Origin: Deltaproteobacteria bacterium
GTDB lineage: Bacteria; Bdellovibrionota; JACOXK01; 2-02-FULL-40-11
Length of the DNA stretch: 38,426 nt
Direction: 5' to 3'
NCBI GenBank assembly: GCA_016198185.1
Contig: JACQJD010000079.1
Span: 1 to 38,426 of the forward strand
Part shown: piece after piece, positions 8,257-35,016 of the stretch
Numbering within the stretch: position 1 is the stretch's first letter
How the letters are laid out: each line of letters opens with the position of its first letter
Program-made: the position numbers and the translations under genes
Notes under the pieces: generated by a model
Told to the model about the DNA's origin: nothing
Database searches by the model: none
What the model saw: only the letters and a program-made list of their open reading frames with translations

Positions 8257-8317
8257 AAGCAATAAAAGTATCGACACTTTTATCACGATCCAGGTGTAAG
8301 TCAATCGAAGAAAAGTT

Positions 8318-11300
8318 TTACTCTTCCCCAATAGCGTCACTATAGAATTCTGGGGCAGCGGCTGTGCTAAAGGGAATCACCCATGGAAGGGGTATGGCAG
8401 AAACCGAAAAGCAATTCATAGAATACGTACATTCTCCGTACGGATTACGACCACTTTGAACTGCGCACTGAGGTACACTGAAAGAAAAAGATTTCATCGA
8501 ACTTCCACACGTGTATTTTTGAATACCAACGTAAGCGTTGTTAATGCTGATTTCGTAATCTGTGTTTGGTTCAAACTTTGCATCAAATCGAAATTCATAG
8601 GGTGGCCCACCGATTTGTTGCCCAGGATATTTCACATTTCTCGTTTTATCGATCAACGTCACATTTTCAATAACCGTATAATAAAAATCGGAAGAAGGCG
8701 TTACCCCAAATTTAATTTCCTGCTTCGCATAATAAATGGCATAAGGATCATTCGCTTCATATTGTTTTCGCGTTGCTGGATTTAAAGCCCCTCGCCACAA
8801 CTCTCGCAATCTCAAATTCGTTCGGTATTGATGCGTCACGTGAAGCCCAATGGAAGAGGCAGGATCACAGGCCGCCTGCCCTTCTGAATTCGTTCTGGGA
8901 TGGATTTCAATATTTTTGGTTGCAATTTCTCTTCGAGTGGGCGGCCATGTTTTCGTTGGGTTTACATTTTTAAATACTTTGATTTGAAAATCTTTCTTCT
9001 CTCGAGACATCAACGATTCAAAAGAAAACGCAGCCACATGTCCACCCCCACCTTCTAAATGCCGAACATGGTCTTGCGGAAAGGCAATTTTTTGAGCGCC
9101 AGACCACACTTCAAATTCAATTTCAATATCATCCCCAAAAGCCGATAGATAGGCCAAAGGATGATCAAACCAAAGATAAACCCAATTTTTCGCCAATTGG
9201 TTTAAAGAACACGTTAACCTTCCATCCACCGGGAACATGCCTCTCACCAAAGAAGCAGCCTCATCACAATTGATTTTGAGCTCCTCTAAAATAGTTCTTG
9301 CATGACTAAAAATTTCTGTCACGTTTAGCCAGGCTGTGGTGGTCTTGTTTTCAGGATAAGAAAGATTTTGAAGCGGGTGAAGTTCAAGATCACAGTTGGG
9401 CTCAATTTTTGCGATACAGGTTTCTTTGGCAATCTCTGCAAGTTTTAAACCTTCGGCGTAATCCAACTTCAGTTGCGCAATGCCCTGATCCACTGATTCT
9501 TTTTTAACACTCAGTGATGAAAAAGCTTCTTTTTGGGCCTTAGCCTCTGGGGCATCTTTATCTGCACATTTTAATGTATCCAGATAAAAATCTCTTTCAA
9601 ACCGTGCTTTTTGTTTTGCCGTTTCGCACAGCCGCTGATCAAAGCTGGGTGAGAGCGTTTGGCAGCGATCTGCTTCATCGACCAGAGCAAGTTCGATGTC
9701 TCTTTTCTTATGCTTACAGGTTGTCTGCCACATCTTAAATTCAAAGTCTGCAGCCTCAAACTTTTGCTGAAAGGGACTCAATTCTTGTAGAAGCGCTTGC
9801 GAGTTTGTTCGTAGCACCGACACTTCGGTTTGTAAGGCCCCTTGATAGTCCGCTTCACAAGCTTTCTGGGCCTGCCGTTTTACAATTTTCATTTGATAGG
9901 AAACATCGATGTGGCCCAGAAGCGTCATCTCCATGAGTTTTGACCGCGTCGTTTTTAAAAAGTCATCAAAGTTTTTTAACTGATCCACCATCATTTTTTG
10001 TTCCATCTGTAATCTATAAATTTCACTCCACTTTCGTCGGTATTGCTCCAGCAGTTTGTCATAATAATGGCTGATCAGTGCCTCTATGGAATCCACCCCA
10101 AAAGATAAGCTAAGTTTAAATCTCACCTCCGCCCCACCTTTCGTGATCTCGGTAACTGCGATTGCAATTTTTTCAGAGAGCAATCGAAGGAGAGCGGCAA
10201 TGTCTTCGAACTCTGCCGCATGTAAAGTCTTTGCAATTTGATTGATCAGCGCAGCCAACCCCTCCAAAAGACTTTTAATGAGCACTGTTTCGGCATTATC
10301 AAACAGTTCATCTTTGAGTGCATCGACGGTGCGTTTCATTAAAAGCCGATACCCTCCGAGAACCACTTCCAACACTTTCAGTCCAATGGCGGCTTTCATG
10401 GTTTCATCAAACTGCTCTTGAACAATGCCTTCGGCCTCTTCAAGTTGTCTTCTGGCACGAAGAAGCTCATATTCACGCTCGAGATGCTCTTTTAAAGAGC
10501 TTAAATTTGCTTGAATCGCCCAATCCAGTCTGCTTTGTAATTTTTCAAGGATGGAATACATTTTTTTAAGATTACATAAATTCGCACCCTTAAAGCCGCG
10601 ATCTTCTTCGCAGCTTTTTGCCTGGGTTAAAAGTCGCGTATATTCCGTTCGGATACCTTCCCCCTCTGTTTGAATCGCCTGGATCGACGGAGATACCTCC
10701 GCAGCACTTGGAGGAATAAATGAACTTGCCGTAACATCTTTCAAAAATGACTCATGGGACTTACGGGTACTGAGCTGTCGTTCCACGCTTTCTTGGTCCA
10801 TTTGAATTCTTAAATACTCTAGCGCTTCATCCCACGTCAGCTGCCCATCATTTTGCGCAAAGGCTGAATGAACCAAATGTGGCCGAGGAAAATGCAGCTT
10901 TCCCAGCGTTTGAGTTCGTGTCTTAAAATGAAGCCAAAGGGAAGGCGTTAAAACAAGAGCGTTTTGGGCAAGGGGATTATTCCGAATCATAAAATACATT
11001 TTTTCTTCTTCAGAATTTTGAGATGAAACCATTGCAATTTTATCAATGATGAGCTCGGCACCGTCTGCTGCAAGGACCGTTTGATACAGGGGACCTGAAA
11101 ACGTATCCGTGAGGTCAAATGGAAGTTGATACTGTGCTTGGGTTTTTAACCATTGCTCGGCATTTTGTTGGGTAATCGACTTTAAACCTAATTTCCCTCT
11201 AAAATCCAAGAGGAGCACTCTTTTTGACTTAAAGAACCGATCCAACATCATGTAAACAGGCGGGGCTAAAGTCGATGAAGAAGGTGTGATTTTAGGTTTC

Positions 11301-11860
11301 CACATTTTGTCTTTGAATGCTGGATCATTCACATTTAGAAAATAGCTCCAATAATAATATAATTTTTCAATAGAGGATTCTGTAAGATCTTGTGAAAATT
11401 GAGGATTCAATAAAAAAGCGAAGTCATGGATGGTAATTTTTCCATCGCCATTTTTATCTAAACGACCTTTGGAGGATGGCACTTGATCCAAAGCTGGGAA
11501 AAGCTGTGGTGCTTCTGCTTCACTGTGAAAAAGATGTTCAGCGAGGGTTTCTTTATCTTTTGTGGCAAGTGCCTTTCCATTTTTTTGTAGGTAGTTTTCA
11601 ATAAAAACACGGCCTTCTTCTTTGGTCAACATTTCAACCCCTGGGGGAAAATAAGAAATGAGCTCTTCAAAACTTAAGGTCGAAAGAGCTTGGGAGGTCT
11701 CAGCAAATGTGACTTGAGTTGGGCTTGATGAAATACCCGAAGACTGATTTCCACGGTCACCACCCCCGCCGCCGCCTCCTCCTCCACAAGCCACACCATA
11801 AAAAGCACAGGCCATCAGGCACACTATATTTTTTTTGATCTTTTGCATGTCAGTCATCAT
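8318..11860 (-). CDS. Large coiled-coil lipoprotein with Cys-polyGly tether and EF-hand-like motifs
   Basis: LMACAFYGVACGGGGGGGGGDRGN lipobox; LDKNGDGKITIHDFAFLL EF-hand loop and NDGQLTWDEALEYL; long charged helical middle region. Confidence 0.75.
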   Translation of the reverse strand: MMTDMQKIKKNIVCLMACAFYGVACGGGGGGGGGDRGNQSSGISSSPTQVTFAETSQALSTLSFEELISYFPPGVEMLTKEEGRVFIENYLQKNGKALATKDKETLAEHLFHSEAEAPQLFPALDQVPSSKGRLDKNGDGKITIHDFAFLLNPQFSQDLTESSIEKLYYYWSYFLNVNDPAFKDKMWKPKITPSSSTLAPPVYMMLDRFFKSKRVLLLDFRGKLGLKSITQQNAEQWLKTQAQYQLPFDLTDTFSGPLYQTVLAADGAELIIDKIAMVSSQNSEEEKMYFMIRNNPLAQNALVLTPSLWLHFKTRTQTLGKLHFPRPHLVHSAFAQNDGQLTWDEALEYLRIQMDQESVERQLSTRKSHESFLKDVTASSFIPPSAAEVSPSIQAIQTEGEGIRTEYTRLLTQAKSCEEDRGFKGANLCNLKKMYSILEKLQSRLDWAIQANLSSLKEHLEREYELLRARRQLEEAEGIVQEQFDETMKAAIGLKVLEVVLGGYRLLMKRTVDALKDELFDNAETVLIKSLLEGLAALINQIAKTLHAAEFEDIAALLRLLSEKIAIAVTEITKGGAEVRFKLSLSFGVDSIEALISHYYDKLLEQYRRKWSEIYRLQMEQKMMVDQLKNFDDFLKTTRSKLMEMTLLGHIDVSYQMKIVKRQAQKACEADYQGALQTEVSVLRTNSQALLQELSPFQQKFEAADFEFKMWQTTCKHKKRDIELALVDEADRCQTLSPSFDQRLCETAKQKARFERDFYLDTLKCADKDAPEAKAQKEAFSSLSVKKESVDQGIAQLKLDYAEGLKLAEIAKETCIAKIEPNCDLELHPLQNLSYPENKTTTAWLNVTEIFSHARTILEELKINCDEAASLVRGMFPVDGRLTCSLNQLAKNWVYLWFDHPLAYLSAFGDDIEIEFEVWSGAQKIAFPQDHVRHLEGGGGHVAAFSFESLMSREKKDFQIKVFKNVNPTKTWPPTRREIATKNIEIHPRTNSEGQAACDPASSIGLHVTHQYRTNLRLRELWRGALNPATRKQYEANDPYAIYYAKQEIKFGVTPSSDFYYTVIENVTLIDKTRNVKYPGQQIGGPPYEFRFDAKFEPNTDYEISINNAYVGIQKYTCGSSMKSFSFSVPQCAVQSGRNPYGECTYSMNCFSVSAIPLPWVIPFSTAAAPEFYSDAIGEE

Positions 11861-18112: not shown

Positions 18113-21100
18113 ATGAAAAAAAGAATTTACCTCATACAGATATGGATGCTTTTGGGCTTTTCTTTTACCCTGCTTCAATGCGGCGGCGGAGGCGGAGGAC
18201 CCGGTGGCGGCGATACAGCTGTGGCCGTGCCAGATGTCATTGTCACAAGTCCACCCCCAGCAGCACCGGAAGTTTCCACTGCAGAAAATTTCGAGTTTTT
18301 GGGGTCTGCTGCCGATGGCTTGGCCGGAGAATGCATTGGCCCCATCACCCTTCAAACACTCAATGCCAAAGAACAAGTTCAAAATGTTTCAACGGACACA
18401 GAATTTATATTTGAAAACGCCTCCACATCCTTTTATGAAAACGATTGTTCAGGAACACCGCTTTCAAAACTCATTCTTAAAAAAGATGAACATTCAAAAG
18501 AGTTTTATGTAAGACATATTCGAGCCGAAGAGCTGGGTATTTTGTTTCGAACGAACGATTTAAAACTTCTAAAACCATTTTCCATCCACATCTTGGCCAA
18601 TGTTCCAAAGAGCTTTCAAGTAATAGTCCCTCCAAAAATGATTGCTGGCGTCTGCACCAGCGGTTTTTCAGTTCAATTGAAAGACGCTCATGACAATCTG
18701 ATTGAAGCGCCTCAGGTGGGCAATGTTAAACTTTCTGCAACGGGACAAACAAAGCTGTATACAACGGCCAATTGCGATTCTGAAATACAAGGTTTTCCCT
18801 CCTTTGCTACCACGCCAAAACTTGAGTTTTATGCCAGAAATGCTGTTTCTCAAACCATCGATTTTTCTGTTTCTTTTGTAGCCGGTGCAAATAAACAAAC
18901 CTTCCCCATTGAAGTGGTTTCGGCAAACGCCTCTAAACTTGAAATCACGGCTGCTTCTGATTCAATCACAGCGGGCCAATATGGAAAACTTACATTAAAA
19001 ACATTGGACGCCAATGGAAATCCTTCTCCAGTGGAAATAGAAGTGAGCATTCAACTTTCCGGCGGACAATTTTATAGCGATACTTCGGATACCACTCCCA
19101 TTTCGCAAACCACCTTAGAGGTGGGCGAAAAACAAAAAGACGTTTACATTCGAGAAACGATTGCACGCCCTATTCAAGTGAAAGCTTCGGCGCCCTCCTT
19201 TGTTTCTGGACAAAAAAATATCACCATTCAATCAGCGCTAGCTTCTACAATCGCCGTCCATGGCAAAGACAATTTGCTATCTAATGAATGTAAAAAATTC
19301 GCACTCCTGATTCAAGACCCATTCGGAAATACAAGCGCTCTAGAAAAATATACCAAAATCGCCTTCAAAAAAGAGTTAGCAAAAGAAGGGAAATTCTACG
19401 ACCAAGGGGATTGTATCAACGAACTTCAATCTATTGCTTTGAGTCCCACAGTGAACTCTAAAACTTTTTATTTTAAAAATTTAAAAGCTGAAGTTTCAAC
19501 GATCGATGCTGTTTTAACACCCGCTGACCTTACCTTTACGTCAAAAGAGGTAACGGTTGACCCTGCCCCCGCTTCTTATCTTGCCATCAGTGGGTTAGGC
19601 CAAATTCGGGCGGGAAGCTGTGAACCTTATGCCATTCAAAGCAGAGACCCCTTTCAAAATCTTTCTCCTGTCGCCGCTGATCTTCAAATAGATCTGGAAA
19701 AGAGCATCAATAGCAGCGCCAAGTTTTATGAAAAACGCAATGCCAATGGAAACTGTGAAAATGAGATTTCACAAATAACACTACCTCAAGGAAAAAATTC
19801 AGCTACCCTCTATGTCAAAAATGAAAAAGTGGAAACCTCGGATCTTACCGCCAAGGATCATGCCGCACAGCTTGCACAAGCAACGCTGTCTATTGGCGTC
19901 TTGGCTGCCACTGCCACTCAAATCACATTAACCGCTGTCCCTCTGGGGGATCACTCTATACGAGCAGGAGAATGTGCGGAATTTAAAGCAAACATCTTAG
20001 ACGCATTCGGCAACTCAAGCCCTCTCGAGGCCAACCAAATGCTCACGCTCTCCATTGGCCAAGCAGAGCTCTTTACCCAGGCCCCCTGTTCTGATGAGCA
20101 TAAAATCACGCCTTCACAGGCTGCACCCCCCAATCTACGGTTTTTTAATTTATCTCCTGGAACATCTGAAAAACAATTCTTTATGAAACAGATTGTCATT
20201 GGAGATCTACAGTTGGCAGCTACTCTTTTAAATCAATCTGTATCTCTCGATATTCATATAGAACCTGATGCCCCACATTCGCTCATCTTTGCTGAAGTCA
20301 TTCAAGGTCCCATGATGGCTGGCGATTGTAGAGAGTTATCTCTGTCCCTCAAAGATCGGTTTGGGAATGGAACGTCTTTTTCCGAAGAAAAACTCTTTGA
20401 GTTAGGTCCTGCAGGTCAATTTTATGAAAATGCTTTCTGTAATGGACCTTCGCTTCAAGGAGGACAAAGCTTCCCGAAAGACACAGAGGCACTAACAAAC
20501 ATTTACTATACAGAAACTGTGGCCGGCAACGCAACCCCAACCGTTTCATTTTTAGATTTGACACTCGGCATTCCCAATGCACACTTTCAAATTTCAGTTC
20601 AACCTCAAGAAGCATCCGAAATTACACTTTCTGTCGATAGAACAACAGATCTATTGGCAACAGACTGTGTCAGAGGATCAGTCGTTGTCAAAGATCAATA
20701 TGGAAATATGAAAGGAGATCCCCTGGTTGTCTCAGGCCAAGCTTCATTCTACTCAAATGACACATGTACAACCCCACTTTTGGGAAATTCTGACTTTGAC
20801 TTACCGACGAATGGCGAATTTTATTTTTTAGCGACACAAGACTTTACGCTACAAGTAAATCTAAAAGACAACCCTGGTCTCGTTGTTTTTCAACCGATTC
20901 AAGTAGTCCTAGATACAGATAGCGATCGCATTTCAGATACCTCTGACAATTGCCCACTTGTGCCAAATCCAGACCAGGACAACCATGATTCAGATACCCT
21001 CGGAGATGTTTGCGATAATTGTCCCAATGCGACCAATCACGATCAAGCTGATAACGATGGAGATGGCATTGGCAATGCCTGCGATGGCACCCCGGATGTC

Positions 21101-22246
21101 GTCGTAACTTGCCAAAGCATCAATCCACAAACAGCACCGGTGGGGACCACCTGCGTTACCTCCAATGGCTATGAGTTTGAAAGGGTTTCATACAACAATG
21201 GCACACCGCCCACCCCATATTTTCTTTGGGGTAACACGACTCACTGGAATGTGGTGTGGTTAGACAAATTCGCCCATAAACTCTGGAGCGGACCTGCCAT
21301 CAAACAAGAATCGTGGGAACAGCCTTGCCATAACAGTTCAGCTTATAGAACCTATACAAAACCTGATGGTCAAGCAGTTGCGATCCATACCAGTAATCCT
21401 AATCAGGCTCAATTTACAGAAGCAAATTCGCATGGCATTCGAGAAATTTTTAAGATGCTGGATAATGACCTCTATATACTCGAAGCCGGCAATAATTACT
21501 TCTTTCCCGATGGAACAGTCTCTCGACCTACCAATGCATCCGGGAAAAATATTAAATATCGCTGTATCACAGATGACCCCAACTATATTTTAAATCCACC
21601 GCCACCGGATCCTGATCGAGATCATGATGGAATTCTCAATGACGATGATAATTGCCCGGATGTTGCAAACCCCATGCAGGCCAATTTGGATGGGGTTGGC
21701 CTTGGGAACGCGTGCAGCCCCTGTGAAAAAATGCCGGGCAATTCTGATATCATCCCCATGGTGGTGATTGAATATCGAAGAAAACTCCAAAAGGGTCAAG
21801 TCTGCGCCATTACCACACCACAGCCCAATGGCCCAACCAACGCCCGAACAACCCGTGTGTTTTTGTTTGATGGCCAAGCCCAAGACCAATTCGAAAACGT
21901 TCCGATAAGTGTGGATAACTTCTGCGATGGAGCTTTTTATTACGTCAGATATAAAATTGAAAATAGAATTACTCTCGGTGAAGGATTCACCTTCCTGCTC
22001 TTATATAGTGATGTCGGCCACCATTCTCAAGACGTATATAATATTAAGGCCTATCGTGAAACGATCATTGACAACACCGAAATGACGGACGTCCCCACAA
22101 CCGGTGCCACATTTGGCCAGTATACTAATATGAGCCAAGGGGAAGACATCTTAGAAACGGAAGTACGCCATTGGGGGGCGTCTGGTGGCTCAGGCAGTGT
22201 CGGCAAAAAATTCTGGTTTAAAATAAATTGTATCGGATCTCATTGA
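18113..22246 (+). CDS. Giant lipoprotein: Cys-polyGly tether, ~8 Ig-like repeats, thrombospondin type-3 calcium repeats, C-terminal domain
   Basis: [15 protein letters not shown] lipobox; recurrent ~110-aa unit; [59 protein letters not shown] and second TSP3 segment near aa 1165-1205. Confidence 0.85.
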
Positions 22247-24276: not shown

Positions 24277-24366
24277 TGTCGAAAAACTGTCATTCCGAGC
24301 ACAACGTACGAGGAATCTACGACGAGATCCCTCGAGCCTTCGGCTCTCGGGATGACTTATTCGACA
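24277..24366. repeat. Dispersed palindromic repeat, copy C (core 24289-24356)
   Basis: TGTCGAAAAACTGTCATTCCGAG...CTCGGGATGACTTATTCGACA. Confidence 0.75.
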
Positions 24367-24396: not shown

Positions 24397-24633
24397 ATGA
24401 ACAAAAACCTAGGACAAAGCATGATCGAATATATCATTTTGGTGGCCATCGTTGCGGTGGCTTCTTTGGGGATTGTCAAAATATTGGGGAACACGATTCA
24501 TGTAAAGCTTTCCCAAATCACCCTAGCCCTTCAAGGAAAAAAATCACAAGCCCGTTCCCTTCGGCCACACGAAGTTCAACCCAAACATTATGAACCCAAA
24601 TCACTGGAAGACTTCTATGAATCCGAAGATTAA
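24397..24633 (+). CDS. Flp-family pilin
   Basis: MNKNLG|QSMIEYIILVAIVAVASLGIVKILG: prepilin-type G|QxxxE site plus TM; SD AGGAGA. Confidence 0.85.
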   Translation: MNKNLGQSMIEYIILVAIVAVASLGIVKILGNTIHVKLSQITLALQGKKSQARSLRPHEVQPKHYEPKSLEDFYESED

Positions 24634-24967
24634 AGGACAGATTCTTTTGGAAACCCTGCTGGTATTGCCAGTCCTATTTTTGACGCTGTATCTGATGACG
24701 ATCTTGCTCTTGACCACGCTCTCCAAACTCATGCTCCAGTGGACTTGTTTTTCCATGGCTCGAACCGTGCTTGAAGAGCCATCCCTGTCTCTTTTCGAAC
24801 TTCACCACAAAGCGAATCAACAGTTACAATCCCTTCCCTTCGTACAGGACACCTGTTCCCTTTCCATAGAACAAACAAAAAAAGATATCTACGTACACCT
24901 TCATCAACCATTCTTTATTTTAGGAAGGACTTATGAGCTGGAACATCGCTTGGCACTCTCTCGATAA
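24617..24967 (+). CDS. TadE-like pseudopilin
   Basis: MNPKIKG|QILLETLLVLPVLFLTLYLMTILLLTTL. Confidence 0.7.
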   Translation: MNPKIKGQILLETLLVLPVLFLTLYLMTILLLTTLSKLMLQWTCFSMARTVLEEPSLSLFELHHKANQQLQSLPFVQDTCSLSIEQTKKDIYVHLHQPFFILGRTYELEHRLALSR

Positions 24968-25607
24968 TCGAAAAGGACAAGTCACGATCCTCATCTTAAT
25001 CGTACTGCCCACATTTGTATGGATGGTTCATGCCACTTTAAAACTCAGTCGAAAAATCGAAAGAAAAATTAAACTTCAAAATGGGGTGGATGCAGCCCTC
25101 TATGTTCACACCCAAACGCTGGCCAGCGGCTTAAATGAAATTTCTAACCTCAATCTGAAACTCAAAGAATGCCTTGCCCTGTTACGACTGGTCCAAGCTG
25201 GAAAAATCATCACGGGGAATCCGGGATTTGTCATCACCGAATCATTTCTCAAACGTCTGATTCAGGCCATTGCCAAACAACAAGACCTGATCAAAAAAAT
25301 CTACCCTGCCTGGGCCTATCAAAAAGCCATGATCATCGCTCGAAAAAATGAAACCCCTCATGTCATCCTCTACCCCCTGACTTTCTCTTATTCAATCCGC
25401 CGAACCTGGACCATTGAAAAACTACCAGGCCCTTACGTCCTTTCAGAAACATTTGATCAGCACAAAGAATTTTCAATGGATGGATTTTTTTACAAAGCAA
25501 AGGAGAGCGCCCATGCAAAAACAACTTTATCTGGAAAAGACTTATACTCTGAAACCTGGCACCTGGAGTGGACCCCTTCGAAACCAATGTGGAATGGCAT
25601 TGATTGA
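24933..25607 (+). CDS. TadG/pilus-assembly-like membrane protein
   Basis: RKGQVTILILIVLPTFVWMVHATLKLSRKIERKIKLQNGVDAALYVHTQTLASGLNEISNLN. Confidence 0.6.
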   Translation: MSWNIAWHSLDNRKGQVTILILIVLPTFVWMVHATLKLSRKIERKIKLQNGVDAALYVHTQTLASGLNEISNLNLKLKECLALLRLVQAGKIITGNPGFVITESFLKRLIQAIAKQQDLIKKIYPAWAYQKAMIIARKNETPHVILYPLTFSYSIRRTWTIEKLPGPYVLSETFDQHKEFSMDGFFYKAKESAHAKTTLSGKDLYSETWHLEWTPSKPMWNGID

Positions 25608-25884
25608 AACTTGTTTTACATTGATCCTTCTTCTAGGCTTTTGCACGCTTTCCATGCGAATGATGGAGGGTTCTATCACTCGAATTCAAAATCGAGTTCT
25701 TTCACGATACTTGGCTTTTCATACCAAGCATTCTCTCCTTCCTTCCAAAGCAGTGCTCCAGTCACGTTTTTTCAAGAACGACGCCATTCGCATTGAAACC
25801 ATCACCCCGTCATCCTCGGAAATTATTTTAAAGTCTTGGGTCAACTCGGAATGTTTAACCTTTCAACATACCCTTTATTTATGA
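25513..25884 (+). CDS. TadE/TadF-like pseudopilin
   Basis: RNQCG|MALIETCFTLILLLGFCTLSMRMME; SD AAAGGAGAG upstream of ATG 25513. Confidence 0.65.
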   Translation: MQKQLYLEKTYTLKPGTWSGPLRNQCGMALIETCFTLILLLGFCTLSMRMMEGSITRIQNRVLSRYLAFHTKHSLLPSKAVLQSRFFKNDAIRIETITPSSSEIILKSWVNSECLTFQHTLYL

Positions 25885-26021
25885 TGACCTTTTTCACACA
25901 AACCATCGTCTTATTTTTCAACACCCTTCGAAAAAAGAATCCAAAAGAATTACGGGCGCTCTTTTTGGCATTGATGGGTTCTTTGATCCTGATGATTGCT
26001 TTTCATTTCTACATGAACTAA
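25881..26021 (+). CDS. Small single-TM membrane protein
   Basis: MMTFFTQTIVLFFNTLRKKNPKELRALFLALMGSLILMIAFHFYMN; ATGA overlap with upstream gene. Confidence 0.55.
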   Translation: MMTFFTQTIVLFFNTLRKKNPKELRALFLALMGSLILMIAFHFYMN

Positions 26022-26029
26022 AAAAAGAT

Positions 26030-26875
26030 ATGAAATTTAGGATACTCTTCTTAGCACTCATTTCTAACTGCATCACCCCTTTTCATTCAGATGCAAAAGA
26101 AAATCTGTCTCCAACCGAACATGTGATCAAAGGCCAAAAACAGTTCTTTGATTTAAATATGGATGCCGCCATCACTCATTTTAAATCTGCCCAAGAGGAA
26201 CAATACGAGCATTTTGATCAATTGGCGGATGGCGAAAATTTAGTTCAAGCACATCTCTATCTTGCCCTATGTTATCATTCGCAACAAAAGCTGGATTTGG
26301 CTAGGGCAGAGATCCGATCGGCCTATGTATTAAACCCCGAAAAAAAGTTAGATGAAAAAAAATTCTCTCCTGCTTTTATGACATTTGTTCAACAAACCAT
26401 TGAAACCTTAAAACCCACCCTCAAATTTTATCCACTCGAAGTCCATTCCAATCCTCCTTTTGCCAAAGTGTGGATCAATGGATTTCCGATGGGGGTGACA
26501 CCGCTTATTTTACAGAGCTGGCCACAAGGACGTCACGTCATCCGATTGGCGTTAGAAGGCTATGCGTCGTGGAGCAAACTCATTTCTGCATCGCAACCCT
26601 CTTCTCAAAAAATAAAAGCCCAATTAAAAGCAGATGACCCATTGCGATGGGTGCTCCAAAAACCCATTTCCCAAAATACCCCTCCTCCGCCAAAAGAATC
26701 ATTGCGCTTTCAAGCGCAAAACCTACCCGAATATCGGGCATCTTCGTCCGGGTGGTTGTGGTGGCCTGTCCTGGCTGCGGCAGCCGGTGGCATTGCCTAT
26801 GGCATTTATCACCATCAACATCGCAAAGAGGCCGAAACGACTCCCAAAACCTCCATCCAAATACAATGGCCGTAA
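26030..26875 (+). CDS. PEGA-domain protein with TPR-like N region and C-terminal TM
   Basis: FYPLEVHSNPPFAKVWINGFPMGVTPLILQSWPQGRHVIRLALEGYASW; C-terminal WLWWPVLAAAAGGIAYGIY. Confidence 0.75.
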   Translation: MKFRILFLALISNCITPFHSDAKENLSPTEHVIKGQKQFFDLNMDAAITHFKSAQEEQYEHFDQLADGENLVQAHLYLALCYHSQQKLDLARAEIRSAYVLNPEKKLDEKKFSPAFMTFVQQTIETLKPTLKFYPLEVHSNPPFAKVWINGFPMGVTPLILQSWPQGRHVIRLALEGYASWSKLISASQPSSQKIKAQLKADDPLRWVLQKPISQNTPPPPKESLRFQAQNLPEYRASSSGWLWWPVLAAAAGGIAYGIYHHQHRKEAETTPKTSIQIQWP

Positions 26876-26891
26876 GTTGACGGTTTTTTTT
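26870..26891 (+). terminator. Weak hairpin plus T8 (possible attenuator inside operon)
   Basis: CCGT-AAGTTG-ACGG-TTTTTTTT. Confidence 0.3.
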
Positions 26892-26920
26892 ATCTCTGAT
26901 AGGAAAAACACTTCATGCAG

Positions 26921-29716
26921 ATGAAACACTTATGGCTCTTCTTCGGAATAACCTTGGCAACCCTGTGCGGATGTTCTCAAAAAGCTTTCCCACCCAAGTT
27001 TACGCAAACCATTCCCCAACCCCTGGCGTCCCAAGAAAGTATTTTGGACTTCAACATTCCTGCCCCTTGCCAAACACTCAAATTTACTGGAACACTGACC
27101 GATGATGAATTTAAAAAACTATTTGCCTGTTTGAACAAAAACGGAACCTTAAACCCCATCATGCCCTTCTTGTTTGACAACGCCGAAGACTCCCCTGTTT
27201 TTGTAGATCTTTACAATAAAACCTTTGGAGAAGACCCTGCCTTAAGACAAGAAGTGTTAAACACCCTCGATATCTTTATTCAAACAGGAGCTCTGCAAGA
27301 TATCTTGCCGGTTTTCTCACTTTTTTTATCTGAATTTGTAAACAGCAAAAACTTTGATACTGTTTTAGAGCCCATTTTAAAAACAATCCTTTCCAATGAC
27401 ATCAGCACCTTTCACAGTATTCAAACAATGGTCGCAAGCCCGCTTTGGCCAACTTTCAGTCGATTTTTGATGGAAAGCTGGCTTTCCGGCTCGCTCCCAA
27501 TGTATTTTGAGGCTTTGGGGTATTTTTTTTCAAACCCAGATGGAATGGAACCTTCCACAGCACAGCTCTTTATTGAAACACTCGAACATCTGATTAAATT
27601 GAAACGACCAGGGACCTCTCCGATCACGCTAGAAGATCTGTATGTCTTAAGTTATCTCAAAACTCCCAGAAATTTTTTGGAAACCCTTCAACATTCTTTT
27701 CAACCCAACGATCTTTCCGAACTTCTGGCAGAACTTTCAGATTTACTGAATCACCAAACGGCTTCTTACCTTTCTCCGGAGCGTCTCGGGCTTCTCAGTG
27801 ATCCCACCTCTTCTTTAGGTGTGGATCAACGGAACGCTTCCAGAAAAATTTTAAAATATCATCCCAAAAACGATCTGACCGCACTCGTCAAATTGATTTC
27901 CAGCTTCCACAGGGGTTTTTCAACCAACGAATCTCTTACGCTTTTAGATTCTATGGATATTTTTGTCATGGGTTCAAAAACCGCCTTCGAAGCACTCCCA
28001 GAGCTAGGTCCCGATACTCCGGCCGCCCATATTATCACCAATTATTCACTCTGGCTCAGCTGTGCACGTATCGAAATGAAAGACCCCGTTTTCCATCGCG
28101 CATCTTTAGAGGACAAAGTGAAACTCTATTCAGCAGGAGATATTCTACACCCAGATGAATCAGATCTTAGAACCTATACCTTTGCCAAACATGTTAAAAG
28201 TTACGTCACACAACAAAAGGCGCAATTCAACCGCGAACTCAATGAGTTTTTAGAGACAGAAGAAAAACCTCAAATCGCCAAGAAAGAGATTCAAATGCAA
28301 TTTGGCCCTATCTTGCCACTCCTTGCCCAAAGCTACGAAGATTCTTTGCGGGAACTCGCCAAACACCACTTTGAAACCATCAACCGTCCGTTGCTCCCCA
28401 CATTAAGTACCGACGAACAGACACTGGTCACCAAAATAGCCGAACACCTTGCCTCTGAAGAACAGACTTCAGAGCCTCTTTCTCTTTTTACGTTGTTCAA
28501 AGCCTTAGAAGAAGTCGATAGCCTCGCCTTGTTTTTTCAAAAATCATTGGCCCTGCTGGACAATGACTATTTATTTACGACCTTTGAAAATGCCCTCTAT
28601 AAAATAACAACCGACTTTTTAACGTACAACCAACCCGTGGACCACTTCTTAAGAAGCATTGAAAACGTCGATGCAGAATCAACTTTTCTAAATTATGCCT
28701 TAACCTCCACCCTCTATGGCATGAACAACAAAATTCCAGAAAAGGATCAAATTGTATTAATCTCCGCATTGGAAAATTATCAGTCCTTAGAACGGTTGCT
28801 CACCCAAAGAAATCTTTTAAAAAAAGTAAAAAAATTCATTCTGCCTTTTGTGAAAGTCATTCCAGCTGGCCAAGAACGCCGCGTTTTATCGCTCGTGTCG
28901 TGGCTTCATTCCGGGAAATTTCTATATGACGACACTTCTTTCTGCCTTCGTTCAGATCATCCTCTGACGGAGACGTCTGATCCATCCACGCAAATGGGTG
29001 AATGCTTTGAACCCATCGATCAAATTTCAACACTCTTATCGAGGATGGAAACCTCCCATTTTTTACAACCGTCTTTAGATCTCGTCTATGCGTGGGGTGA
29101 CACCGCTGAAACCTTAAATCACGTAATGACCTTTTTGCTTCAATCTGAGTCAAAACAAAAATTGATGAAAACCTTGTCACGTTTATCGTCCCTTCCCCCT
29201 CACCTTAAAACCAATCTTGGCAAAGGCATCCATACCAGCGTTTCAGAAAAAGATTATGAAAGCATCGCCCCCCTGCTTCTAACGTTGTCAGAGGGAGATC
29301 GAATGGCCATAAGCTCTCAGTTTCCCACTTTGATCGCAGCCCCTCAAGAACGTCTCATCACCCCTATTCTATTAGATACAAAAAATTTAATTCTTACGAA
29401 TAAAAAGCCATGTATTGAGCTTCTGGCGCACTTGCCTCCTGTGTTGACCCATGAACACCTAGACGACATCAGCCGTTTTTTGAAAAAATATACGACTCAT
29501 TTCCCTGAAAAAAGAATCTTGACCCAAGTGCTTCAGTCGGGTCAAATAGAAGCCCTATTGAGAATAACGCACCATATGATTGAACAGAAAAAATTTCAAA
29601 ATATGATGAAGTTTGTTTCAAGACTGATCGACCAAAAACAGGCTCAAAGATCTGAGTTAGAAATAACGCTAACCTTATTGATTAAACTTCTTAAACTCCA
29701 AGGAGGAAAGAAATGA
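26921..29716 (+). CDS. Large lipoprotein, alpha-helical, unknown function
   Basis: MKHLWLFFGITLATLCGCSQKAF lipobox; 931 aa. Confidence 0.75.
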   Translation: MKHLWLFFGITLATLCGCSQKAFPPKFTQTIPQPLASQESILDFNIPAPCQTLKFTGTLTDDEFKKLFACLNKNGTLNPIMPFLFDNAEDSPVFVDLYNKTFGEDPALRQEVLNTLDIFIQTGALQDILPVFSLFLSEFVNSKNFDTVLEPILKTILSNDISTFHSIQTMVASPLWPTFSRFLMESWLSGSLPMYFEALGYFFSNPDGMEPSTAQLFIETLEHLIKLKRPGTSPITLEDLYVLSYLKTPRNFLETLQHSFQPNDLSELLAELSDLLNHQTASYLSPERLGLLSDPTSSLGVDQRNASRKILKYHPKNDLTALVKLISSFHRGFSTNESLTLLDSMDIFVMGSKTAFEALPELGPDTPAAHIITNYSLWLSCARIEMKDPVFHRASLEDKVKLYSAGDILHPDESDLRTYTFAKHVKSYVTQQKAQFNRELNEFLETEEKPQIAKKEIQMQFGPILPLLAQSYEDSLRELAKHHFETINRPLLPTLSTDEQTLVTKIAEHLASEEQTSEPLSLFTLFKALEEVDSLALFFQKSLALLDNDYLFTTFENALYKITTDFLTYNQPVDHFLRSIENVDAESTFLNYALTSTLYGMNNKIPEKDQIVLISALENYQSLERLLTQRNLLKKVKKFILPFVKVIPAGQERRVLSLVSWLHSGKFLYDDTSFCLRSDHPLTETSDPSTQMGECFEPIDQISTLLSRMETSHFLQPSLDLVYAWGDTAETLNHVMTFLLQSESKQKLMKTLSRLSSLPPHLKTNLGKGIHTSVSEKDYESIAPLLLTLSEGDRMAISSQFPTLIAAPQERLITPILLDTKNLILTNKKPCIELLAHLPPVLTHEHLDDISRFLKKYTTHFPEKRILTQVLQSGQIEALLRITHHMIEQKKFQNMMKFVSRLIDQKQAQRSELEITLTLLIKLLKLQGGKK

Positions 29717-30969
29717 TTTTAAAATATACCTTTTTAGCAATGATAGCGTCCTTGCTATCGCTCCCTGCGATTGCAGGAAGCATCGATACCCTCCCCACCT
29801 CTGCCAACAAGACCAAACTTTACTTAGATACTTATTTCCATCCAGAACGATTGCGTTCTGAACTCTATCAAAAAGACAAGGTGGATGCCGGGAACTTCTA
29901 TGGCGGCCCCGTCTCGCGAAAGGATCTCGAATCTGGGAAAGCAGCTGTTTTTAGATATGGTACAGGACGTTTTCCATCTGCTATTTTGGCCACCAGTCGA
30001 ATAGAAAAATTTCAATATGACTATTTATTCGACTCTGGCATTGATCCCACCGAACCAGACGAAGCATTAGATGAAGAAACGCTTCGAGAAAAACAAGAGC
30101 TCCTGTTAGCAATCCGAAAAAAAGTAGGCTATACGTTTGCCGAACAACAAAAGCAATTTGAAGAAGAACGCGCCGCTCAAGAAAAAAAAACAAACCGCAC
30201 CTTAACGGATCCTGAAATTGAAAAATTAAAAATATCCATTGCAAAGCGCTTTCCTACCTTTGATGATCCTCAATCCGATGAAACGGAAGGCTTGGCCATC
30301 ATTAACAACACCCATTTGGACACGGTCTATAGCATCATTCGTGACCGCGATGCCTACAAGAAAGTTCTTTCAGAATATTTTTTATACTCTTATGTTCTCA
30401 AAGACAAAGACTTCACAGCACAGGATCGTGATCTTTTAAATCCAAATCGAGATGAAGACAGTCTGTTACCCTCTGAACGTGGGCTTGGATTGCCTTCGGA
30501 ACACAATCAAATTTTATTTTCTCAATTTAAGATCACTTCTTATTATTTAGATTATCCTTGTTTTAATGAGGCCACCCAACAAGATGTGCCCATCACCCTT
30601 CACACAAAAGAAGGAGATAAAAAAACAAATCTCAAGCGCATCATTGCGGCTTGGCGGATCGACCCACGACTGAAAGAAGATGGTCGATTTGTTCCAACGA
30701 TTGACCCTCAAACCAAAAAAATTGTGGGGGGCAATGGAAAATTTGGACCTAAAAATATTCATGTGGTGGATGGTTATATTCTTTTAGAACCTTATATTGT
30801 AAAGGACGCTCAAGGCTTCGAAAGCATTTCAGAGACACAAGTGTTAGCCCTCTATCATGCATACATGCGAATTGATGATGAATACGGTGACTTAACGGGC
30901 CTACCCCAAGAAGAGCGTGAACAAGCAGGGCGAAGATTTATGAGCGCCATGATGAATATTCTTCGCTAA
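29713..30969 (+). CDS. Exported hypothetical protein; SRPBCC/START-like C-terminal half (paralogue of next gene)
   Basis: Signal peptide; strong SD AAGGAGGAAAG; ATGA overlap with upstream gene; shares motifs with the 30969-31970 product. Confidence 0.7.
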   Translation: MILKYTFLAMIASLLSLPAIAGSIDTLPTSANKTKLYLDTYFHPERLRSELYQKDKVDAGNFYGGPVSRKDLESGKAAVFRYGTGRFPSAILATSRIEKFQYDYLFDSGIDPTEPDEALDEETLREKQELLLAIRKKVGYTFAEQQKQFEEERAAQEKKTNRTLTDPEIEKLKISIAKRFPTFDDPQSDETEGLAIINNTHLDTVYSIIRDRDAYKKVLSEYFLYSYVLKDKDFTAQDRDLLNPNRDEDSLLPSERGLGLPSEHNQILFSQFKITSYYLDYPCFNEATQQDVPITLHTKEGDKKTNLKRIIAAWRIDPRLKEDGRFVPTIDPQTKKIVGGNGKFGPKNIHVVDGYILLEPYIVKDAQGFESISETQVLALYHAYMRIDDEYGDLTGLPQEEREQAGRRFMSAMMNILR

Positions 30970-31970
30970 TGCCATTGCCCATGCACCACCGATCCCCCAT
31001 GACGCAACACATGAAATTTACCCATGTTTTTTTACATACGTGCGTCCTCATTTTTTCAACGTGGGCACGCTGGACATTTGCGGCAACCAATATCGTCCAC
31101 ACCAGAAACATGCTTTTTATGCATCGTCCCACCATTATTGAAGAACAGTTATACGCCAAAGGTTTTATTAAAACCTCTCAACAAAAATTTTCCAGGCAAG
31201 ATTTATATTTAGGACGAGTTCCCATTGAGCTATTTGATTTTCCGCGCATGGCCCCTCAAGAAATATTACGTCGTGCTCAAGAAGAAATGGAATCGCTGGA
31301 AGAAAATTCTCTCACAGAAGAAGAAAATCATCACATCAAAGAAACCATTCTCAACTCCTATGCAGACCCCATCGATTCGCAAGTCATTGAAGGCATTGCC
31401 TTAACATGGGTAGATGCACCCGCAGAAGAGGTCTATGCAATCTCTTGTGATTTAAATCGCTTTCATGATTTCGCACCGCATGTTTTTCTAAAAAGCGTCC
31501 AGTTGACTGCCGCTGCATTGTCTTCAAGAAAAATTTTTAAACCCAAGGAGGTTGAGTTTCAATTTTCTCATTTGAAATTCCCCGGCATTGATTTTAAACA
31601 CACCTTGCGTTATGAAAAATCGACCGAGAAAATTTATCGAACCCTGGGAAACGTGACACAAGAAATTCCCCAATATATTGTGGCATGGGAAATAGATCCT
31701 CAATTCAATCACGATTCTGATTATCCCAATAAAAATGTTTTCTTAAACAATGGCCAATTTTATATTGAACCTTATCTGCGTGAAGATGGAAGCATCGATC
31801 CCAAAAGCTGTTTGGTGCTTTACCACATTTATATTAAGGTAGATACGGTTAGCTTTGGGTTTGAGACGATTGAAAAATTTATTCGGGACAGCGTTTCAAA
31901 TCGTGTTTTAAGAGATCTGGCCCATGCCCTTCATGAAAAGGCAAAAACATTAAAATCGGAAACGAAGTAA
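30969..31970 (+). CDS. Exported SRPBCC/START-like protein
   Basis: EGIALTWVDAPAEEVYAISCDLNRFHDFAPHV...AWEIDPQFN...QFYIEPYLRED...LYHIYIKVDT; start may be 31011. Confidence 0.65.
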   Translation: MPLPMHHRSPMTQHMKFTHVFLHTCVLIFSTWARWTFAATNIVHTRNMLFMHRPTIIEEQLYAKGFIKTSQQKFSRQDLYLGRVPIELFDFPRMAPQEILRRAQEEMESLEENSLTEEENHHIKETILNSYADPIDSQVIEGIALTWVDAPAEEVYAISCDLNRFHDFAPHVFLKSVQLTAAALSSRKIFKPKEVEFQFSHLKFPGIDFKHTLRYEKSTEKIYRTLGNVTQEIPQYIVAWEIDPQFNHDSDYPNKNVFLNNGQFYIEPYLREDGSIDPKSCLVLYHIYIKVDTVSFGFETIEKFIRDSVSNRVLRDLAHALHEKAKTLKSETK

Positions 31971-31971
31971 C

Positions 31972-31991
31972 GGGGCTCTCTCTATAGCCCC
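31972..31991 (+). other. GC hairpin adjacent to RBS of next gene
   Basis: GGGGCT-CTCTCTAT-AGCCCC followed by AGAGGAAAAAAAATG. Confidence 0.45.
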
Positions 31992-32003
31992 AGAGGAAAA
32001 AAA

Positions 32004-32387
32004 ATGTCCTGGAATAACATAAGAATCATGGGTGGTTTGGTCGTTGTCAGTTTGGTGATTGCTTTGTACCTTCGGCACACGCCCAATTTAAAACAAACCC
32101 AACCTATGCCCACCCTTTCCACCCCATCTGCCAAAAACCAAGGTAACGCCCCTTATGTTGAAGGAGAAGTGCTTGTAAAATTTAAACCCAATACCTCTGG
32201 CCGCATTATTTTAAAATGGAAAGAAATACTCAAGGTAACCCAAGAAACCTATTTAGAAAGCATTCAAGTCTATCAATGGAAAGGAAATTTTAAAACACAA
32301 GAAGCGATTCATCTTTTGACACAATCCAAAGAGGTCGTCTATGCAGAACCTAATTATACCGTCTCAATCCAAAAGCCTTCAAAATAG
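32004..32387 (+). CDS. Stand-alone subtilase (S8) propeptide-like protein with N-terminal TM
   Basis: YVEGEVLVKFKPN...LESIQVYQWKG...TQEAIHLLTQSKEVVYAEPNYTV = fervidolysin-like N-terminal prodomain pattern; no peptidase domain follows. Confidence 0.65.
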   Translation: MSWNNIRIMGGLVVVSLVIALYLRHTPNLKQTQPMPTLSTPSAKNQGNAPYVEGEVLVKFKPNTSGRIILKWKEILKVTQETYLESIQVYQWKGNFKTQEAIHLLTQSKEVVYAEPNYTVSIQKPSK

Positions 32388-32406: not shown

Positions 32407-35016
32407 TTATTGCTCTTTGCGTATGTCGCGCCAGAGAGATTTAAAATCGAAATTGTATTCAATGTCGTTAAACTTTTCGTCTCCCCATAAATAATGAATG
32501 AGCGTCACGGGCATACTGCCTCCCCGAGCAATGGCAATTTTTTTTGGATGAGGGATCAAGGAACCGTAATACACTTGCAATGAATTCTTTTCTTCAAATA
32601 ACTCGCCAGCATGCCTTCCCGGTACATGGGTGTTAAACCCTTTTCCCCGAGCTGGAAATAAATTCAATGTTCCTGCCAAATCACTGTCATAGAGATGCGA
32701 AATTTCATGAATGGCATCCAGCCGATCCAACTTCGCTGTTGCTTGTAACCATTCTTCATCAGAATGCCACTGCCCCAATTCAACCCATGTTGTCACCAGA
32801 GAACTCTGGTTCATCATCCCCAAGGGGTCTCCTTCAACCTTCCCCGTAATCGAGTCCGAAACCAACGCATATTGATAGAGATACTTTTCAAATTTAGCTT
32901 CTTTAAATTCGCGCGAACCACGAAAGTCTGGATCTTTTTGAAGTCGTTCCCAAATTTTCGGAGAAAATTTACGTAAAATCCGCCCTTCTCCTTTCGGCGC
33001 AATGATCCTCACACAGCTATCCACCGATGGATCGTTTTCCGGTAAAGATTCACGCACTAAAAAATAATCCAGGGTGTCTTTTAATTTTGTTTTGATTTCA
33101 TAAACCCAATCCACTCTGTCACCAGAAAATAAGGGGTAAGAGCGAACATCCATCAATGTAGGATGAGATGCCCATCGTTCCAAATGAGAAACGGTCAAAG
33201 GATCGGTCGGCTCCTCGGGAGACTTGTATGCATCGAGGTGAAAAAGATCCATGACAAAGGACCCACCGGCCGTACTCCCATAGACCACATCATATCCCAC
33301 AATGGAAGATTTGGAACGATCCAATTTTGGGGGTCCACCTTCATCAGACGAAATTTTTTTCCAAAATTTTGTTTTGGGATGAATGACACTGGCGCCCACA
33401 TCTGCCACACCGGCATCTAAATCCACTTGGATTTGACCATGATCTGAAACCAATCCAAAAAGGGTCTGATCATAAACACCGGCTTCCACATAATATCGAA
33501 AGAGCTGTCCCACATCTTCATCAAATTTAACAAGATACTGATTTACCACTTTTTCATGATACGGCCCCAATTCGTGGGTTTTATGATCCACCCAAGGACA
33601 ATACCATAATAAAAAATCTGGCAATCCTTCATCTTCCGTCTCCAAAATTTCAGTGGCAAGCGTCTTATAATGTTGTTCGGTCCAAAAGATCTGGTTCACC
33701 CAACGCTGAGATTCTCGATGGATATAAGAAACCACTTCCATCCGTTTACGATTTAAATTTCTTTCCTTGGCTGAACGCCGAGAGAGATCCATGAAGCCAA
33801 TGGTTTCCGCCAAATCTGGGTAAAATTGAAACAGTACCTCCCCTGTAAAATAACTAAATCGCTCATCGGCACCGGTATCAAAATGCCCCATAAAAGACAG
33901 CGTCTGAAAAGAATCCAAATACTCAAAAATACTTTTGGCGCCTCCTTTTTTTGCCAAGTCTCGAAGGCATATGCCATCTCGCCCCCAAAAATACATCCAC
34001 TCTTGATTTCGACGATTGACATACGTAAAGTTTGGAATTTCTGTCGAAGCCTGTTCGCCCTTGACGGATGTTTCTGAAACGCCAACCCCCGTTTCTAAAA
34101 TAGCAATGTTTCGCGTCGAAATCGTGGGTGTGCTAGAAACGGAGCGATCCACCCAAGCCCCCCCACGATACATTTCAGCAATCGATGGATATCGAGCTTT
34201 GCCAGCCTTGAGCAAATCCACCATGTATTGCCCTCCAACGCCATCCACCAACATCATGACGGCTCGCCTCTTTGTCATCGACTGTTCGAAGTACATCGCC
34301 ACATCCTGCCACGTAGCCTTTGCAAACCATTGAAGTTTGGCTTGTCGCAACGCTTGCCGACGCTGAAAATCGACAAAATAATCCATCCCTAAGGTTTTTA
34401 CCAATTGGCCAATAAAATGGTACAAGTCAGAGGCCGCCTCTGGGTCTTTGAGCATAGGGTCCAGTTTAGAAATCACAAAGGGAGGTAAATTGGGGTTTTT
34501 GGAAAGAATTAAAATCTGTTTATGAATTTCAGAAGCCGCAGCCTCTTCCCCATTTTTGAATAAAAAAAGTTTTCCAAAAATGAGTAAAATGGTTCTTAAA
34601 TACTCTCGATGTGTCGGATTTTTAATCCACTCTTTCAAATCCCCTTCCGAAGATTGAGATCCCTTGAGAACTTTTTTGAGGACACCAAAACGGTCCATCA
34701 TAGACAGTAAAAAAGGAAAATAGCTTTCATCAAACGCAGAACTTGTAATGACTTGCCGATATTTGGATTCTAATTCCGGATCCTCCAATTGCATGGATTC
34801 TAAAAAATCCAAAAGTCTTTGCTCAACAATATATTCCCGAATCGATTGGTACAAAGGCTGAACTGCACCAGATTTAACCTTGTCATACATCTCAACAAAG
34901 ACATCGGCAAGCCCTGCATGGGCGCTGACCGACCCAAACACCAATACCATTGCCAGCAGGCTGTTGAAGATAGACTTTGTCAACACCTTGCTAGCACCAC
35001 ACATTTTCTTTTGCAT
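32407..35016 (-). CDS. Exported alkaline-phosphatase-superfamily protein (type I phosphodiesterase-like)
   Basis: MMLVDGVGGQYMVDLL, SSTPTISTRNIAILETG, LLWYCPWVDHKTHELGPYHE, LFGLVSDHGQI; signal peptide SVSAHA|G. Confidence 0.85.
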   Translation of the reverse strand: MQKKMCGASKVLTKSIFNSLLAMVLVFGSVSAHAGLADVFVEMYDKVKSGAVQPLYQSIREYIVEQRLLDFLESMQLEDPELESKYRQVITSSAFDESYFPFLLSMMDRFGVLKKVLKGSQSSEGDLKEWIKNPTHREYLRTILLIFGKLFLFKNGEEAAASEIHKQILILSKNPNLPPFVISKLDPMLKDPEAASDLYHFIGQLVKTLGMDYFVDFQRRQALRQAKLQWFAKATWQDVAMYFEQSMTKRRAVMMLVDGVGGQYMVDLLKAGKARYPSIAEMYRGGAWVDRSVSSTPTISTRNIAILETGVGVSETSVKGEQASTEIPNFTYVNRRNQEWMYFWGRDGICLRDLAKKGGAKSIFEYLDSFQTLSFMGHFDTGADERFSYFTGEVLFQFYPDLAETIGFMDLSRRSAKERNLNRKRMEVVSYIHRESQRWVNQIFWTEQHYKTLATEILETEDEGLPDFLLWYCPWVDHKTHELGPYHEKVVNQYLVKFDEDVGQLFRYYVEAGVYDQTLFGLVSDHGQIQVDLDAGVADVGASVIHPKTKFWKKISSDEGGPPKLDRSKSSIVGYDVVYGSTAGGSFVMDLFHLDAYKSPEEPTDPLTVSHLERWASHPTLMDVRSYPLFSGDRVDWVYEIKTKLKDTLDYFLVRESLPENDPSVDSCVRIIAPKGEGRILRKFSPKIWERLQKDPDFRGSREFKEAKFEKYLYQYALVSDSITGKVEGDPLGMMNQSSLVTTWVELGQWHSDEEWLQATAKLDRLDAIHEISHLYDSDLAGTLNLFPARGKGFNTHVPGRHAGELFEEKNSLQVYYGSLIPHPKKIAIARGGSMPVTLIHYLWGDEKFNDIEYNFDFKSLWRDIRKEQ

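Follow-up and report, generated by a model that had tools for sequence, protein, structure and literature searches.

The Kil system of Myxococcus xanthus is encoded by two gene clusters and combines an ATPase fused to an FHA domain with a short secretin lacking N0, other FHA proteins, three minor pilins beside the major pilin and a CpaB of its own, KilB (PMC8460266, PMC12075869). A stand-alone subtilisin propeptide-like protein that inhibits the protease SUB1 is described for malaria parasites (PMC6993865). Features of both cases recur in the gene cluster described below or in the genomes of its relatives. The cluster most probably (at about 0.72) encodes the pilins and accessory proteins of a second Tad (type IVc) pilus system, hereafter Tad2, whose genes are split between several places, together with an envelope layer formed by its last five genes. 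Literature searches combining the elements of the cluster found no paper describing such a system, and no experimental work on its proteins was found.

The window analysed, 38,426 nucleotides in length, is the whole of contig C36 of a draft genome (G000; 1.77 Mb, 93 contigs, 92% complete). It was compared with four relatives of its home family, i.e., G001, G002 (Deltaproteobacteria bacterium GWA2_38_16, 100% complete), G003 (RIFCSPHIGHO2_02_FULL_40_11) and G004, with G006 and G007 from the same class, and with G010 from the same phylum. Several neighbourhoods in the compared genomes end at contig ends.

Organization and conservation of the gene run

Ten genes (A to J, Table 1) occupied positions 24397 to 32387 on the + strand, and every junction was either an overlap (1–95 bases) or a gap (8–39 bases). 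Overlaps were found at A-B (44), B-C (35), C-D (95), D-E (about 4, ATGA), G-H (4, ATGA) and H-I (1, TAATG), and gaps at E-F (about 8), F-G (39) and I-J (33); the figures for D-E and E-F assume that E spans 25881–26021. The first-pass annotation had described nine to ten co-directional genes with short gaps or overlaps, leading from Tad-like to exported proteins. The reading frames were as it described and the total was ten, the 46-residue gene E having been absent from its list; where it had counted three products with pilin-like N termini, four were found (A, B, C and D). Its PEGA protein and stand-alone subtilase propeptide were borne out by Pfam matches above cut-off, the Flp and Tad matches of the window being below cut-off. 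Its 931-residue lipoprotein has either 933 or 931 residues, depending on the choice between two ATGs.

Table 1. Genes of the cluster, with positions in the window
Gene	Product	Position	Strand	Basis
A	Flp-type major pilin, 78 aa (LG^QSMIEYIILVAIVAV)	24397..24633	+	PF04964 17.9 bits, under cut-off; same-position pilins
B	TadE-like minor pilin, 125 aa (KG^QILLE)	24590..24967	+	G002 orthologue matches PF07811; orthologue in G001
C	TadG-like putative minor pilin, 224 aa, without Glu at +5	24933..25607	+	PF13400 14.5 bits, under cut-off; orthologues
D	Putative third minor pilin, 123 aa (CG^MALIE)	25513..25884	+	Motif; orthologues in G001, G002, G004
E	Single-pass membrane protein, 46 aa	25881..26021	+	Conserved motif at matching place in relatives
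F	Exported TPR-like and PEGA protein with C-terminal TM-like segment, 281 aa	26030..26875	+	PF08308 43.7 bits
G	Outer-membrane-type lipoprotein, 933 aa, lipobox LCGC	26915..29716	+	Orthologues after F in G001, G002, G004
H	Exported protein, predicted START/SRPBCC fold, 418 aa	29713..30969	+	AlphaFold2 model and Foldseek
I	Exported paralogue of H, 333 aa	30969..31970	+	Weak PF03364; cross-genome H/I matches
J	Membrane-anchored stand-alone subtilase propeptide (Fervidolysin_NPro-like), 127 aa	32004..32387	+	PF22148 43.4 bits

Matches of the small membrane proteins to CoV_E, OHA and similar Pfam families were all below cut-off and were dismissed as chance. Comparison with PHROGs showed no phage relation, and scans for sigma-70 promoters and terminators gave results close to those for shuffled sequence and were not used. 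An imperfect palindrome at 24289–24356, between the flp gene and a divergent SPOR gene, folded better than shuffles (z = -2.9); its arm motif GTCATTCCGAGC was also present at four other loci, once within the coding sequence of the SPOR gene of G001. Elsewhere in the window were an exported protein of 869 aa (32407–35016), convergent with J and containing a type I phosphodiesterase domain (63.8 bits), an exported lipoprotein-like protein of 1377 aa with thrombospondin type 3 repeat matches (18113–22246), and two large genes lacking any Pfam match (8318–11860, 1180 aa; 6268–8340, 690 aa).

All genes from A to J were present in G002 in the order of the window, with one additional gene on the opposite strand between F and G, and the run there carried on past J into genes K, TadB2, TadC2 and L. 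The other members of the home family supplied overlapping parts. In G001 one contig spanned A to G and a second G to J, the latter with an additional gene separating I from J; in G004 one contig spanned C to G and another H to L; and G003 contained G to L. Identity between orthologues ranged from 25% (B) to 65% (A), and since they recur in the same order at this level of divergence, the gene set is more than a chance association. Gene-neighbourhood analysis had been set beforehand as the check on the cluster, and it showed that the downstream genes stay with the pilins inside the home family, given the full order in G002 and the overlapping parts in G001, G003 and G004.

Outside the home family a different arrangement was seen. 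In G006 and G007 the homologue of G adjoined a single H-like gene (loci L024 and L100 respectively), and no pilin gene was mapped nearby; in G010 it lay beside genes for an acyl-CoA dehydrogenase and an FHA-GGDEF protein, both of which were also near the G homologue in G006. Among 291 genomes sampled from the phylum, G had strong matches only in the home family and the families containing the G006, G007 and G010 homologues. Short matches to its N-terminal region occurred in larger lipoproteins encoded by members of other families, and no pilin gene was seen near the two of these for which the surroundings were read. Because the lipoprotein and the START gene travel without pilins outside the home family, the link between cargo and pilus is family-specific. 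The proposal that the whole cluster is one specialised assembly is therefore plausible at most.

Pilins, exported proteins and a stand-alone propeptide

Glutamate was found at position +5 after the glycine cleavage site in A, B and D; it was absent from C, and this absence was conserved among C orthologues. The prepilin site of A (LG^QSMIEY, i.e., Gly^xxxxGlu-Tyr) was conserved in G001 and G002, where the pilins at the same position were 60% and 65% identical to A respectively. The G002 orthologue of B matched TadE (PF07811) with 25.9 bits against a cut-off of 22.9. Orthologues of C were 46–48% identical in G001, G002 and G004, and the start codon of D was preceded by a good ribosome-binding site; motif and position alone identify C and D as candidate minor pilins. 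The small gene E retained the motif KNxKEL(K/R)xLF at the same place in G001, G002 and G004.

Among the exported products, F was 38–42% identical to its orthologues in G001, G002 and G004. G was predicted to be all-helical, in a model of such low confidence (pLDDT 38.5) that it is not interpretable. Its wider family reaches families f2 and f5; as a single-sequence query against genome contigs G produced no match, and an alignment of H did produce matches. A search of the PDB with the G profile returned only weak matches to Ku80 (E = 0.01), which were taken as chance.

The first-pass annotation had guessed that H was SRPBCC-like, and structure prediction agreed. An AlphaFold2 model of H built from nine sequences, of middling confidence (mean pLDDT 67), had the order strand, two helices, strands and C-terminal helix that typifies the START/helix-grip fold. 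When compared with the PDB by Foldseek, it matched START, CERT (ceramide transfer), PYL and TcmN (cyclase) folds, the best with E = 2e-5 and a probability of 1.00, at modest TM-scores of about 0.4–0.58 on target length. H is thus predicted to have a START/SRPBCC helix-grip fold. Orthologues of H and I matched each other across genomes (E = 1e-5 to 2e-19) and could be placed in a joint alignment, which indicates that the two are paralogues; I would share the fold by its homology to H. A further exported protein, SRPBCC-like by eye but without a Pfam match, was encoded upstream of the G002 operon (L018:5735-6463) and was also present in G001.

J consists of a complete NPro domain with no catalytic domain. 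Its orthologues were 46–55% identical, and those in G001, G002 and G003 each matched PF22148 with 36–47 bits; a sequence search of the PDB with J gave no match. Several subtilases were encoded in each genome. The subtilase on contig C52 of the window's own genome (L164:163-1317) passed directly from a membrane anchor to the catalytic domain, with Asp, His and Ser intact and no recognisable propeptide; NPro and catalytic domains were both present in another subtilase from this genome, examined as a control. Six orthologous subtilases of 370–384 aa lacked the prodomain (the C52 copy and those of G001, G002, G003, G005 and G006); five that were compared were 48–85% identical, and the catalytic triad was intact in the four that were read. 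It is plausible that J pairs with such a propeptide-less subtilase encoded elsewhere in the genome. G006 carries one, and no J was noticed there on unsystematic inspection. The C52 gene, here and in relatives, adjoins an exported SFDG-motif gene that is phosphodiesterase-like by eye.

The remainder of the Tad machinery

The first-pass annotation had noted no TadA, TadB, TadC, CpaB or RcpA nearby, which holds for the contig and fails for the genome. Contig C37 carried a separate Tad locus (Tad1), and K, TadB2, TadC2 and L were located on contig C70, where the neighbouring kinase-PEGA, CBS and CGS genes were the same as in G003 and G001. The C70 TadC2 scored 31.7 bits against a cut-off of 25.2, and TadB2 was assigned by homology. 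In G002 and G003, TadB2 and TadC2 lay downstream of the cargo. No J was present in the 215 bases before K on C70, and a convergent phosphodiesterase gene follows J in the window; the operon is therefore split between J and K in this genome.

The motor genes were found in relatives. In G002, a cluster near polA encoded a secretin of 376 aa (132 bits), with a sub-threshold Pfam match only in its N-terminal part, a TadA2 fused to an FHA domain (T2SSE 203.5 bits, FHA 71 bits) and an FHA-sigma54 activator. Secretin and FHA-TadA2 were also found in G001, FHA-TadA2 in G004, and the end of TadA2 in G003, where the cluster was again close to polA. The FHA domain at the N terminus of TadA2 was identified by Pfam in G002 and G004 and by BLAST in G001. 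In G006 the secretin, TadA2, K and a fused TadB2-TadC2 were encoded together in a single run, next to the kinase, CBS and CGS genes. TadA2 proteins from families f1, f2, f5 and f11 grouped together with moderate support (90/87). The idea of an operon without any machine was rejected, given TadB2 and TadC2 on C70 and the secretin and FHA-TadA of relatives.

In the window's own assembly, the secretin, the FHA-TadA and a conserved neighbour of 234 residues were not found, nor was a clear orthologue of the FHA-sigma54 gene. The only polA match of this genome halts at residue 501, in the last bases of contig C44. Given this truncation, and because a non-Tad neighbour is missing along with the motor genes, the motor region probably falls in an assembly gap; absence through such a gap is likely, loss being the alternative.

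Tad1 on C37 comprised two TadE-like proteins, CpaB, a secretin (RcpA), a TadA with an N-terminal CbiA/ParA-like region, and TadB; its TadC was about 20 kb away, with three FHA proteins. The N-terminal extension of Tad1 TadA (L004:8387-10243, L105:13625-16378) was weak in the window's genome and scored 44 bits in G006, which hints that TadZ and TadA are fused. A single protein of 917 aa in G002 combines TadA and TadB of Tad1, and a prepilin peptidase was seen in the Tad1 locus of G006. A search of eight genomes for a second CpaB found none belonging to Tad2; each had a single RcpC/CpaB, which was the Tad1 copy in G000, G002, G003 and G006. A separate type II secretion system (T2SS) was encoded on C58 (GspD-F and pseudopilin-like genes).

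Interpretation and comparison with known systems

The gene order, its conservation, the domains and the presence of the remaining machinery in relatives are observed. That a pilus is assembled, that the minor pilins act at its tip, that the cargo is physically connected with it, that a ligand is bound and that J pairs with a subtilase are inferred, along the following lines. A would build the fibre, with B, C and D as the minor pilins of its tip, where C, which has no Glu5, might occupy the topmost place in the manner of GspK. TadB2 and TadC2, with the FHA-TadA2 and short secretin seen in relatives, would assemble and extrude the fibre, and the PEGA kinase near the tail and the FHA-sigma54 activator near the motor are likely controls. 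The products of F to J would constitute an envelope layer, with F as a periplasmic PEGA/TPR protein, G as a very large outer-membrane lipoprotein, and H and I as periplasmic START proteins that probably bind lipid or another hydrophobic ligand. J would be an anchored propeptide, probably folding or restraining a propeptide-less subtilase from elsewhere. Several observations count against Tad2: a TadA2 and RcpA2 were not seen in this genome, so that the system may have no motor in this species; the operon is interrupted after J, with K on another contig; there is no Tad2 CpaB; the Flp and TadG matches fall short of the Pfam thresholds; and in G006, G007 and G010 the lipoprotein, with or without a START gene, is apart from the pilins.

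In a less probable but serious alternative, the pilins do form a Tad2 pilus and the genes from F or G to J are co-transcribed passengers with an independent envelope job, i.e., lipid handling by H, I and G, and protease control by J. The occurrence of the lipoprotein with one H-like gene alone, its company of acyl-CoA dehydrogenase and FHA-GGDEF genes, and the recurrence of its N-terminal region in large lipoproteins of other families, with no pilin gene seen near the two whose surroundings were read, would all be expected of passengers; but the cargo of the home family lies between the pilins and TadB2/TadC2, as far as the relatives' contigs reach, and overlaps of 1–4 bases join G, H and I in the window. 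The break after J, where the convergent phosphodiesterase gene stands and beyond which the C70 tail has no J upstream, together with the missing TadA2 and RcpA2, could instead mean that the operon of this species is a decaying remnant, split and deprived of its motor. That reading is unlikely, in that all ten reading frames and TadB2, TadC2 and L are intact, and the truncated polA and missing non-Tad neighbour point to a gap in the assembly.

A short Flp, three minor pilins and, in relatives, a secretin would also suit a type II-like pseudopilus exporter, of which H, I or J, being signal-bearing products of the same operon, would be substrates. We consider this improbable, as J retains its N-terminal membrane anchor, the genome already has its T2SS on C58, and nothing links H or I to export past the periplasm. 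A more elaborate version of the preferred reading, which we offer as speculation with little weight, would make Tad2 a contact organelle with which the bacteria attach to other cells and perhaps feed on them; its base would carry a lipid-handling layer of giant lipoprotein and tandem START proteins, and J would act in trans as a protease switch on the membrane-anchored, propeptide-less subtilase.

The inhibitor of SUB1 described from malaria parasites (PMC6993865) resembles J in being a stand-alone propeptide-like protein in a genome that also encodes subtilases. It differs in that J is bacterial, membrane-anchored and encoded in a pilus operon, its inhibitory action being putative, and in that the candidate protease for J has no propeptide of its own. 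J offers a bacterial case, open to testing, of a protease propeptide that may act in trans from a gene of its own.

With Tad/Flp (type IVc) systems, Tad2 shares a Flp pilin and minor pilins of the TadE/TadG type as well as TadB and TadC; in relatives the likeness extends to a TadA-type ATPase and a secretin. Unlike those systems, its genes are dispersed in separate clusters, TadA2 has an FHA domain and was seen with no TadZ, there is no CpaB of its own, and five exported cargo genes stand between the pilins and TadB/TadC. The FHA-ATPase fusion of relatives and the shortness of their secretin, the further FHA proteins, the split clusters and the three minor pilins are shared with Kil, whereas the cargo genes differ and Tad2 has no counterpart of KilB. 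Since Kil has its own CpaB and only one CpaB is present per genome here, Tad2 was classed as a Tad variant rather than a Kil system. The cluster would represent part of a second Tad system of uncultured bacteria, divided between several loci and accompanied by exported cargo; some features of this system match the predatory Kil system, and a periplasmic START pair is tied to its pilus operon.
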